Part shown: one piece after another, positions 25,452-28,935 of the stretch
Layout: each line of letters starts with the position of its first letter
Numbering within the stretch: the stretch's first letter is position 1
From: Solirubrobacterales bacterium
Lineage (GTDB): Bacteria; Actinomycetota; Thermoleophilia; Solirubrobacterales; Solirubrobacteraceae
Assembly: GCA_025964175.1 (NCBI GenBank)
Contig: JAOPZL010000370.1
Span: forward strand, 1 to 36,972
Direction: 5' to 3'
Length of the DNA: 36,972 bases
Notes under the pieces: model-generated
What the model saw: the letters and a program-made list of their open reading frames with translations, nothing else
Database searches by the model: none
What the model was told of the DNA's origin: nothing
Position numbers and translations under genes: made by a program

Positions 25452-26816
25452 TCATCGCACGAGCCGGATCGTGAGTCCCACCAGACCGGTCGCGTCACCG
25501 GCGCCGCCCAACAGACCGAGGATCGCGGCGACGTACGCGGTCGTCTCCGGGATCGCGGGCACGCACCCACACCGCAGGACCTCTCGCGGTCCCGCGTTGT
25601 AGGCGGCCAGCGCGAGCGGGACCGAGCCGAACTGGCGCAGCAGGTCCCGCATCAGATGCGCCTGAGCGTCGATCGCGGCGTCGGGATCCGTCGGGTCGGT
25701 CAACCCGTATGCCGCGGCGGTCCCGGGCATGAACTGCGCGATGCCGCGCGCGCCGGCCGGCGAGACCGCGAACGGGTTGAAGCCCGACTCCTGCTGGAGC
25801 TGCGCGGCCAGCAGCGTCGCCGAGACGTTCCAGCGCTGAGCCGCGCGCGAGAGCGCGCCGGCGTACTGCTCGGGCACGAACGCGGGCAGCGCCGATGAGC
25901 CGTCACCATCGCGACGACGCGCGAGCGCCGGGGCGCTGGAGGGGTTCAGCGTGTAGCCGAAGTGCCACGGCTCCCAGCCGTATCGCATGAGAAAGCCGAA
26001 TCTCGGGGCGTTCGCGGCCAGCCAGGCGTAGGCGGACGGTGGGCCGAGGTCGAGCTCGGTGGCGAGCCGATGGAGGGACTCACCGGGAGGGGCGACCCAC
26101 TTCGGGTCCGGATGCAGCGCCCACAGCCGGGCCTGCTCGGCGTTGGAGCGATAGGCCGAGGAGATCACGAGCTGGACGCCGTCCTCGGCGGCCGCCGCCA
26201 CCAGTCGATCGAACGCCCGGGCGACGTCCGGTCGCATCCGCTGTCCCTGCCGGGTCGCCATCGGCCCGGCGTACTCGTCGCCCCACGCCATCTGGGCGCC
26301 GGTGAGTCCCGCGGAGGGCACGACCTCGGCGTCGGCACTGGCGCGGACGTCGACCCGTGCCCGCGCACCGGCCACGGTGAGCGCCATCGGCTCGCCGACC
26401 TCGACGCGCACGAGCGTCGGCGCGATCGGGTCGGCGCCGGGGAACGACACCATCGCGGCGTGGGCTCCGTTCGCCCGTGCGACCGCCTCGCCGTCGCGGG
26501 CTGCCGCGGCCAGGTACGCCGCCCGGTCGAGGTGGCGCGGGTTGGGCATGCCGTCGATCAGCGCGGGCTCGAACAGCCGCGGCAGGAGCTCGTGCATCGT
26601 CCGGGCCGCCGCCAGCGCTCCGAGATCGGCCGCCCGCTGCTCGCGCCCGTGCGCCCCGACCCCCGACGCCAGCAGCCCCAACACCACCGCGGCGAACAGG
26701 ACCGCGCAGAGGATGGCGACGAGCAGCACGGCCGCCTGTCCCCGCTCGCCGGAGCGGCTGCGATGAGCGACCTGCGCGGCGGGCGGCGTCGCTCGCGCGT
26801 CGATCGTGGTCAGCAT
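25452..26816 (-). CDS. TadE/TadG-like N-terminal membrane segment fused to VanY-type D,D-carboxypeptidase and SLT lytic transglycosylase
   Basis: GERGQAAVLLVAILCAVLFAAVVLGLLASGVGAHGREQRAADLGALAAART; then VISSAYRSNAEQARLWAL...ESLHRLATELDLG...YGWEPWHFGY (VanY/LAS); then LLAAQLQQESGFNPFAVSPAGARGIAQFMPGTAAAYG...LALAAYNAGP (SLT). ATG at 26816. Confidence 0.85.
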   Translation of the reverse strand: MLTTIDARATPPAAQVAHRSRSGERGQAAVLLVAILCAVLFAAVVLGLLASGVGAHGREQRAADLGALAAARTMHELLPRLFEPALIDGMPNPRHLDRAAYLAAAARDGEAVARANGAHAAMVSFPGADPIAPTLVRVEVGEPMALTVAGARARVDVRASADAEVVPSAGLTGAQMAWGDEYAGPMATRQGQRMRPDVARAFDRLVAAAAEDGVQLVISSAYRSNAEQARLWALHPDPKWVAPPGESLHRLATELDLGPPSAYAWLAANAPRFGFLMRYGWEPWHFGYTLNPSSAPALARRRDGDGSSALPAFVPEQYAGALSRAAQRWNVSATLLAAQLQQESGFNPFAVSPAGARGIAQFMPGTAAAYGLTDPTDPDAAIDAQAHLMRDLLRQFGSVPLALAAYNAGPREVLRCGCVPAIPETTAYVAAILGLLGGAGDATGLVGLTIRLVR

Positions 26817-27520
26817 CACTGCTGCGCCAGCGCGGCGCGCAGGCTCGAGAGCGTCCCGGGCAGCGCGATGCCGGCCATCGCCAGCACGCGCGTCGTCAGC
26901 GATGGCGCCGGGTCCAGCCGCGCGGCGGTCGCCGCGGTCTCGGCCAGACGGTCGACCGCCAGCTCGACCAGATCGGCATCCGCGCCGTGGACGAGCACGA
27001 GGTCGCGCTCGGCGAGGACGACGTCCCACTCGGGACCCCGTGCGGCGAGGAGCCCGAGCATGCACGGCACGTCGGCGCTTGCGGCCTCTGCTCGACGCCA
27101 GGCCGCGACGGCGGCGGCCGCGTCGGCCGGGAGCGCCACCACGACGAGCCGCCCGCAGGCTCGAGCGCTCACGTCCCGGGCCACCAGCGACCTCGCGAGT
27201 CGGCGGGCAGCCGGAACCGCCGGCGCGCCCGCTGCCTGCTCGACCGCGTCGCCGCCCCAGAACGCCACCGTCGCCACCCCACGACGGGCGGCGGCGAGCG
27301 CGACGGCAGCTCCGTGCCCGCGTGCGCCGCGCCCGGTCGCCAGGAGCGCGACGGTCGAGGGCAGCGGTGCGCGCGCGGCACCGCGGGCCCTCGATGACCG
27401 TTGCCCACGCCCTTCGGGACGGTCGGTCGCTGTCGGCTGATGGGTGCTCGGCCCGCCATCGGCCGGATGCACGAACCATCCGGAGACCGCCTGCGCGACC
27501 TGCTGCGCCCGGCGACTCAT
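26816..27520 (-). CDS. Hypothetical protein, weakly CpaE/MinD-like with degenerate P-loop
   Basis: STVALLATGRGARGHGAAVALAAARRGVATVAFWGGD resembles a Rossmann/P-loop start lacking a Walker A Lys; ATG 27520 overlaps the upstream stop. Confidence 0.5.
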   Translation of the reverse strand: MSRRAQQVAQAVSGWFVHPADGGPSTHQPTATDRPEGRGQRSSRARGAARAPLPSTVALLATGRGARGHGAAVALAAARRGVATVAFWGGDAVEQAAGAPAVPAARRLARSLVARDVSARACGRLVVVALPADAAAAVAAWRRAEAASADVPCMLGLLAARGPEWDVVLAERDLVLVHGADADLVELAVDRLAETAATAARLDPAPSLTTRVLAMAGIALPGTLSSLRAALAQQ

Positions 27521-27987
27521 CCGGTCGACCGCGCCGCGGCAGACCCGAGGCGCGCAGGCTGTCGCTGGACCGTCGCCCGCATGGTCATGCCCGCGCCGCT
27601 CCACCGCGCGAGCGCATGCTGCCGCGCGGGCGTCGCGACCGCCGTCGCCGTCCACCGCGCCGGTCCGGGTGGGTCGACGGTCACCCTGACGCGGTCGGCG
27701 TGGACCGTGACGGCGACCCCGGAGTGCGCCCAACCCGGGAGGGCCGCGCGTGCGGCACGGGCCGGGTCTGCGCCTTGGAGGATGGCCACGGCGCCCGCTT
27801 CTGCCGCGTGGTCGGCGAGCTCGCGGGCCAGGCCCGTCGCCAGCAGCTGGGCCACGCCGATCACGACGGCGACCACGATGGGCAGCATCCCCACCAGCTC
27901 GGTCGTCGCCTGTCCTGCGCAGCCGCGCACGCATCCGCATGGGCGACGTCGCCCCACTGCGGCGTTCCCCGCCCCCACGGCCCTCAC
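27517..27987 (-). CDS. TadE-like pseudopilin family protein
   Basis: CAGQATTELVGMLPIVVAVVIGVAQLLATGLARELADHAAEAGAVA: class III prepilin-like G|QATTE motif and TM. Confidence 0.75.
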   Translation of the reverse strand: MRAVGAGNAAVGRRRPCGCVRGCAGQATTELVGMLPIVVAVVIGVAQLLATGLARELADHAAEAGAVAILQGADPARAARAALPGWAHSGVAVTVHADRVRVTVDPPGPARWTATAVATPARQHALARWSGAGMTMRATVQRQPARLGSAAARSTG

Positions 27988-28394
27988 GACGCACCCTGCG
28001 GGGCGAACCGCGCGCGCGTGCGGATCGACGCCAGATGCAGGTCCGCCACCACGCTCGGCACCACCAGCCGCAGGCTCACCGCGCCGTCGCCGACCACCCG
28101 CACCGCGACGCCGCGAGCCAACGCGTCCGGCAGCACCGCGCGCGCGGCCTGCGCCGGATCGCGGCCCAGCGCGGACGCTCGCGCGGCGGCGCGCGCGGCC
28201 GATCCCGACAGCCAGACGGCCTGCCCGGCGACGACCGCCTGCCAGGCCAGCAGCCCGAGCAGGACGATCAGGGGCAGGAGCGCGACGAGCTCGACGGCCG
28301 CCTGGCCAGACGCGCTCGCTCGGGCATCCGCGCGCCGGCCGCGCCTCGTCCGGGTCCGCGTCCAGCGCTCTCGGTTCGGGGTCGGTGGCGGCAT
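27984..28394 (-). CDS. TadE-like pseudopilin family protein
   Basis: ASGQAAVELVALLPLIVLLGLLAWQAVVAGQAVWLSGSAARAAARA: classic TadE G|QAAVE motif; GGGAGG RBS. Confidence 0.82.
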   Translation of the reverse strand: MPPPTPNRERWTRTRTRRGRRADARASASGQAAVELVALLPLIVLLGLLAWQAVVAGQAVWLSGSAARAAARASALGRDPAQAARAVLPDALARGVAVRVVGDGAVSLRLVVPSVVADLHLASIRTRARFAPQGAS

Positions 28395-28518: not shown

Positions 28519-28869
28519 CTAGTACTCCTTGGAGTGCCGCCAGACCCGGTACAGGCCGTAGCCCGACGCGCCGAGCAGCACGATCCAGAGCACGGTGCCC
28601 GGGCCGCTGTCGAAGAGCCGCGGGGAGCCCGCCAGGGTCAGGACGATCGCGCCCAGGGCGACGTACGCGATCAGCCGCCAGGTGTCGCCGAGCGAGTAGA
28701 CGTCCATGCGGTGCTCGCGGTACCAGCGCGACGCGAGCAGGGCGATCCCCGCCGTGATGATCACGAAGAGCACCGCACCGAAGAGGTTGGCCGCGGTCCC
28801 GCCGCCGGGCAGCGCGTAGACGCCCAGCGCGAGCAGCGCGACGATGCCGAAGTTGCGGACGTGCTTCAC
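28519..28869 (-). CDS. Small multi-TM membrane protein
   Basis: VKHVRNFGIVALLALGVYALPGGGTAANLFGAVLFVIITAGIALLASRWYREHRMDVYSLGDTWRLIAYVALGAIVL...; GTG start with TAGAGT 7 nt upstream. Confidence 0.7.
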   Translation of the reverse strand: MKHVRNFGIVALLALGVYALPGGGTAANLFGAVLFVIITAGIALLASRWYREHRMDVYSLGDTWRLIAYVALGAIVLTLAGSPRLFDSGPGTVLWIVLLGASGYGLYRVWRHSKEY

Positions 28870-28935
28870 GCCATCAACTCTAATGCCCCGACCGCCCATG
28901 ACCCGCGCGACGCGCGGGCCACCGACTCGACCGGC

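Follow-up and report, generated by a model that had tools for sequence, protein, structure and literature searches.

A TadG-like pilin module fused to VanY and SLT wall hydrolase domains in Solirubrobacterales: a candidate wall-opening tip of a Tad-type filament

We analysed a 36,972-nucleotide stretch of DNA (hereafter, the window), contig JAOPZL010000370.1 of the Solirubrobacterales assembly GCA_025964175.1, and focused on one 454-residue protein, which we call F0. An initial annotation of the window had read this gene as a single open reading frame (ORF) joining a TadE/TadG-like N-terminus to a VanY peptidase and an SLT lytic transglycosylase, and this description holds. The gene and its parts are as follows.

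25452..26816, minus strand: TadG-like pilin/VanY/SLT protein F0, 454 residues (ORF reading, Pfam/NCBIfam, homologue alignment, structure prediction)
26739..26816, minus strand: hydrophilic leader, residues 1-26, ending in Gly26 (homologue alignment)
26316..26738, minus strand: pilin-like module, residues 27-167, with an alpha1 of ~56 residues, a second helix and three beta strands (structure prediction)
25947..26261, minus strand: VanY/M15 domain, residues ~186-290, with H249, D256, E282 and H285 (Pfam, alignment, fold search)
25500..25886, minus strand: SLT lytic transglycosylase domain, residues ~311-439, with E343, AYNAG at 405-409 and a CxC pair at 416/418 (Pfam, alignment, fold search)

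F0 is one intact ORF of 454 residues on the minus strand, read from 26816 to 25452. The longest open frame that holds it starts at 27479, but the start that is conserved is the ATG at 26816, whose bases are shared with the stop codon of the preceding gene (TGATG). Between F0 and a homologue from the same genus (L004), the three codon positions differ at 90, 76 and 173 sites, and 122 changed codons are synonymous. This third-position bias, together with the synonymous changes, indicates that the coding of F0 is real. An origin of the fusion by artefact, frameshift or assembly join is ruled out by the full-length single-ORF form in dozens of independent genomes. The gene is split in a few genomes: by a probable frameshift in G033 (C1:2696145-2697480), and into two parts ~10 kb apart, by insertion or rearrangement, in G059 (C1:2101139-2113190). 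In a structure predicted from a 50-sequence alignment, F0 forms three confident blocks (residues 25-167, VanY and SLT) joined by two low-confidence linkers.

Both hydrolase domains score well above their Pfam cut-offs: 79 bits for SLT (cut-off 21.3) and 60 bits for VanY (cut-off 25). The nearest solved folds, by Foldseek, are Slt and MltD for the SLT domain, and LdcB and VanY for the VanY domain. The catalytic motifs, which had appeared intact in the window, are indeed so and are retained throughout, or nearly throughout, an alignment of 58 F0 homologues, from which all residue counts given here are taken. The VanY/peptidase M15B signature is present (zinc ligands HxxxxxxD plus H, and the catalytic Glu), with S247, H249, D256, E282 and H285 kept in 58/58 homologues. 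The SLT family 1 motifs (Glu in an ES motif, GIAQ, AYNAG) are present in F0 and in 57-58 of the 58; catalytic E343 is kept in 57/58, and Y406 and G409 of AYNAG in 58/58. One homologue, L125, is without an intact SLT. The CxC pair that follows AYNAG (C416, C418; 55/58) is a possible disulfide or metal site. The initial annotation had further called the peptidase a D,D-carboxypeptidase. The VanY/M15 fold stands, but the D,D label is too specific, given LdcB among the nearest folds and the replacement of VanY by NlpC/P60 in relatives (described below). On present sequence evidence, L,D-carboxypeptidase or endopeptidase activity is as possible as D,D-carboxypeptidase activity. The NlpC/P60 replacement hints at endopeptidase-type cutting, which may make the M15 domain an endopeptidase in function, not a carboxypeptidase.

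At the N-terminus, the Gly at position -1 (Gly26) is conserved in 57/58 homologues and the Gln at +1 in 58/58, with a hydrophobic helix following, the pattern of a class III-type prepilin leader. Position +5 is mostly Leu, and is Glu in 0/58. Predicted alone, the pilin-like module reaches a predicted local distance difference test score (pLDDT) of 94.4; in the N-terminal block, alpha1 spans ~56-58 residues and is followed by the second helix and the three beta strands. The model thus predicts that the N-terminus is a whole pilin-like module, more than a membrane anchor. The earlier proposal of a pilus-type anchor is retained insofar as a Tad-type N-terminus is combined with wall hydrolases, plausibly for pilus passage, but the element looks like a whole pilin-like module (residues ~26-167), more than just an anchor. 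According to a review of type 4 filaments, assembly begins at the tip, where a minor pilin complex ends in a capping subunit without Glu5 (PMC10191384). With its Gly|Gln junction and, as in tip-capping pilins, no Glu5, the F0 N-terminus looks like a tip minor pilin. Among homologues of the same architecture, the Tad family PF13400 (cut-off 22.3 bits) is matched over its cut-off in L116 (25.3), L200 (24.9) and L201 (28.1). The NCBIfam model TIGR03816 (Rv3654c-like TadE) gives 29.5 bits on the F0 N-terminus, below its cut-off of 50.95.

Four genes upstream of F0 belong to the same neighbourhood.

26816..27520, minus strand: gene X, 234 residues, between TadE2 and F0 and overlapping both; no family match
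27517..27987, minus strand: TadE2, TadE-type pseudopilin, G|QATTE (Glu5)
27984..28394, minus strand: TadE1, TadE-type pseudopilin, G|QAAVE (Glu5)
28519..28899, minus strand: small conserved membrane protein directly upstream of the pilin unit, in 16/20 loci compared

TadE1 and TadE2 have a Gly|Gln junction like that of F0, but with Glu5, and two such Glu5 TadE-type genes stand directly upstream of F0 in nearly all loci, including those of the distant family f5, where other genes differ. The Solirubrobacterales gene order is small membrane gene - TadE1 - TadE2 - X - F0, between pst-phoU and uvrC-rapZ, and f5 keeps TadE1 - TadE2 - F0 - uvrC - rapZ. Altogether, F0 belongs to a conserved TadE-TadE-X-TadG unit with motor genes elsewhere in the genome. 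Gene X evolves rapidly. A MinD/TadZ-like GGCGAT stretch in its homologue L120 suggests that it may be a TadZ/ParA-like ATPase, but there is no Pfam match and no useful PDB profile match.

A search of 101 relatives (Solirubrobacterales) returned some F0 match in 90 and a strong one (E <= 1e-30) in 80. Across 299 genomes of the class there were 110 strong matches, in Solirubrobacterales and one further family, f5; the same architecture therefore recurs within Thermoleophilia. Among 397 genomes of the phylum, whole-length matches are confined to the class; outside it the architecture was not seen, and the VanY-SLT profile finds SLT only. Within the class, F0 is present in single copy and its synteny is stable. 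Most named records belong to Solirubrobacterales and Thermoleophilaceae; one is Solirubrobacter soli DSM 22325 (L036). One metagenome-assembled genome record titled Bifidobacterium breve (L060) carries a typical Solirubrobacterales F0 gene and is likely mislabelled or contaminated.

Profile searches with the pilin module uncovered variants with other enzyme cargo at the same locus, after the TadE pair and before uvrC. In genus g77 of family f5 and in family f11, NlpC/P60 takes the place of VanY in the TadG-like gene, either with SLT or lacking it. The syntenic TadG-like protein of G146 (L203/L209) combines NlpC/P60 (PF00877, 63 bits) with SLT (80 bits), and its Tad match exceeds the cut-off; those of G218 (L206/L210) and G262 (L208/L211) are of NlpC/P60 type instead of VanY+SLT. 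Family f11 proteins have NlpC/P60 plus a long hydrophobic C-terminus. In two f5 genomes, G205 (L212) and G221 (L213), the TadG-like protein has VanY without SLT, again upstream of uvrC. The TadE pair is kept in every lineage with the pilin module, NlpC/P60 versions included. Judged from these domain assignments, what the cargo always retains is a peptidase acting on peptidoglycan stem peptides. That it persists through the swap speaks for wall hydrolysis as the selected function. Outside the class, four proteins of other actinobacteria (L218-L221) share both hydrolase types, NlpC/P60 and SLT, with the NlpC/P60 variant of F0 and have no Tad/pilin N-terminus; they start MTxT..IASIQSRIAGIQG and are possibly flagellar.

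The motor genes TadA, TadB, TadC and RcpC adjoin mraZ-mraW-ftsI in Solirubrobacterales, in most F0-bearing genomes examined, and TadA-B-C stand beside the same genes in several f5 genomes. In the source genome, TadA is on contig C14 and Peptidase_A24 on contig C96, the T2SSF (TadB/C-type) match is weak (1.5e-4), and RcpC was not seen, where the contig ends; complete relatives encode TadA, TadB, TadC and RcpC. A prepilin peptidase is present in the source genome and in 89/101 genomes searched. In good-quality genomes, F0 and TadA occur together in 56, F0 only in 5, TadA only in 3 and neither in 11 (Fisher p 2.6e-7, kinship ignored), whereas F0 shows no significant co-occurrence with PilC of type IVa pili (T4aP; p 0.11, kinship ignored). 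An association of F0 with T4aP rather than Tad is thus unsupported. In a TadA tree, the F0-associated set lies opposite a Flp-type clade (clade support 98/97), and the split of the F0-associated set itself is supported at 82/55. Of the three good genomes that have TadA and lack F0, two fall in genus g25; the one examined, G027, has a TadA (L144) of the Flp clade, which accounts for its exception. Second, Flp-bearing Tad loci in some genomes keep a TadE of their own.

These gene positions could also be explained if F0 were a wall-remodelling enzyme for growth or division, held in the membrane by a Tad-type segment that is a mere anchor, with its TadE neighbours and TadA association incidental. 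The F0 locus is not beside tadABC, the tad genes adjoin the mraZ/fts division cluster, and TadE-type and TadG-type N-termini are able to act as signal-anchors. We regard this as unlikely, however, since a whole pilin-like module is predicted rather than one helix, the Gly|Gln junction is invariant, the TadE pair persists even beside the NlpC/P60 versions, and loss of F0 tracks TadA, not PilC.

The reading that we favour, with moderate confidence, is that F0 is a modular TadG-type minor pilin, and that a TadE1-TadE2-F0 tip lets its own Tad-type filament or short pseudopilus through by opening the wall. It draws on the architecture, the intact catalytic residues, the pilin-like module, the TadE-TadE-(X)-F0 unit, the co-occurrence with the TadA lineage and the peptidase swap. 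In this mechanism, prepilin peptidase would process the F0 pilin module, and processed F0 would join TadE1 and TadE2 in a tip complex; the dispersed TadA/TadB/TadC/RcpC genes would encode the machinery that drives the filament. The two enzyme modules, a VanY/M15-fold stem-peptide peptidase and an SLT lytic transglycosylase, would point away from the membrane. There they would cut the thick Gram-positive wall around the filament or just in front of it, clearing a passage for a pilus or short pseudopilus. The target would be the cell's own wall rather than that of neighbours.

Several observations weigh against a Tad-type tip. The PF13400 match in F0 itself, at residues 26-72, is weak (15.4 bits, below cut-off), and for the isolated pilin module Foldseek gave no significant PDB fold match, nor did a sequence search of the PDB find any. 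F0 lies apart from the motor genes, and the co-occurrence counts for F0, TadA and PilC are uncorrected for phylogeny. Some genomes have F0 but no detected TadA, including G054 (98% completeness, unexplained), and G079 has TadA without F0. PF04964 detected no Flp major pilin in the source genome or most relatives, Flp being found beside second Tad loci, and a motif search near TadA in Solirubrobacterales found none.

In the tadABC/RcpC locus of Solirubrobacterales, likewise, neither TadE nor Flp was found; a divergent Flp was also sought after TadC and not found, the hydrophobic stretch at that place being the C-terminus of TadC. In family f5, tadC is followed by a gene for a pilin-like protein of ~80 residues with GxxxxEY or similar (L179, L180, L181, L185); it is possibly the major pilin, lost or moved in Solirubrobacterales. 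Judged by the Flp major pilin, which was not found, the F0 system is not classed as a canonical Flp/Tad pilus. As no Flp was found, a long pilus may not exist, and the filament may be a pseudopilus or have too divergent a major pilin.

We consider it very unlikely that the system is instead a pseudopilus resembling that of type II secretion systems, which would clear the wall for secretion or DNA uptake with no surface pilus, perhaps under phosphate regulation. Such a device would fit the failure to detect Flp, given that second Tad loci of Flp type in those genomes were detected, and the position of pst, phoU and a response regulator directly upstream of the unit in most Solirubrobacterales members. 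However, a divergent major pilin could be encoded elsewhere, as for Myxococcus KilP, which is encoded outside the main cluster and was missed at first (PMC12075869), no secreted substrate or competence gene is linked, and the pst neighbours are not conserved in position in f5. To return to the wall-opening tip, a bolder and more doubtful proposal is that the Flp-less Tad machine may be a wall-piercing device, in which a short TadA-driven pseudopilus of TadE-type subunits would push a tip with exchangeable dual hydrolases (VanY+SLT, NlpC/P60+SLT or NlpC/P60) through the wall. If true, this would be the first enzymatic, self-penetrating pilus tip.

According to a structural study, no report as of July 2025 had tied a peptidoglycan hydrolase or lytic transglycosylase to any Tad pilus; the study proposed recruitment of outside enzymes (PMC12307814). 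Tad passage through peptidoglycan is thus an acknowledged open question, to which F0, with its enzymes fused to the presumed tip subunit, is a direct candidate answer in monoderms. In the literature we found no report of a TadG-VanY-SLT fusion, in agreement with the initial annotation, or of Tad in this group. Solirubrobacter soli DSM 22325, a cultured and non-pathogenic carrier of the gene, makes the proposal testable.

CwlT/VirB1-type hydrolases of Gram-positive conjugation are single-transmembrane proteins that pair a glycan cutter with a peptide cutter and let an envelope machine cross the wall. They are part of type IV secretion systems (T4SS) and carry NlpC/P60+SLT with no pilin module, whereas F0 has VanY+SLT. 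In the lineages examined, F0 lies outside any T4SS or conjugation module, its neighbours being pst-phoU, the TadE pair, uvrC and rapZ.

Heterotrimeric TadE/F/G tips with a large modular TadG-like subunit were described in 2025, in Myxococcus Kil (PMC12075869) and, as a prediction, in Caulobacter CpaJ/K/L (PMC12607857). Like the F0 unit, the KilN/KilLMN tip of Myxococcus xanthus has a TadE-type, a TadF-type and a large modular TadG-like subunit, variable C-terminal cargo and motor genes in separate clusters (PMC12075869). The KilN4 cargo is without known enzymatic fold, whereas that of F0 is two peptidoglycan hydrolases. CpaL, a TadG with vWA (PMC12607857), resembles F0 in its TadG-like pilin module with a bulky extracytoplasmic domain and in sharing a predicted place at the tip with two further minor pilins. 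Its cargo is a vWA mechanosensor/adhesin in a diderm host, in contrast to VanY+SLT. With F0, the roles of exchangeable Tad tips, a new idea so far applied to adhesion and predation, would come to include enzymatic wall opening.

The Kil parallel also suggests that the filament could show its hydrolases outward against neighbouring cells, as a contact-dependent, Tad-delivered wall-attacking tip. Exchangeable tip complexes of Kil, a Tad system, are essential for prey killing (PMC12075869), Myxococcus degrades prey peptidoglycan locally at contact (PMC8460266), and the F0 cargo is swapped between peptidoglycan enzyme types. We nevertheless think attack on neighbours rather improbable. Kil tips carry no known hydrolase domain, no immunity gene is recognised in the F0 unit, its single-copy state and stable class-wide synteny are unlike typical fast-moving antagonism genes, and the one conserved chemistry, its active sites invariant, points more towards housekeeping.

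Further parallels come from other pilus families. Modular T4aP pilins are widespread, predicted peptidase grafts included (PMC8179133). Modular type IV pilins such as PilB of S. sanguinis, like F0, have a functional module grafted on a pilin for tip display (some S74 and M26 peptidase grafts are predicted), but they belong to the T4aP family (IPR012902), unlike Tad-type F0, and we found no mention of VanY, NlpC/P60 or SLT grafts in that study (PMC8179133). LytF of S. sanguinis is a wall hydrolase aiding pilus extrusion in a monoderm (PMC13192262). It is proposed to help a pilus exit the cell, as is F0, but is a separate secreted enzyme of the competence pilus, whereas the F0 enzymes are fused to the pilin module.

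Two further observations concern the Tad loci. The F0-linked tadA-tadB-tadC genes directly adjoin mraZ-mraW-ftsL-ftsI-murE (the dcw cluster) across the class (L133-L146, L179-L181, L185); this placement may link Tad function with wall synthesis or division. In the Tad locus of G041 (L134:12104-16251), an HD-GYP-type (HD_5) protein and a histidine kinase/response regulator pair lie upstream of RcpC.
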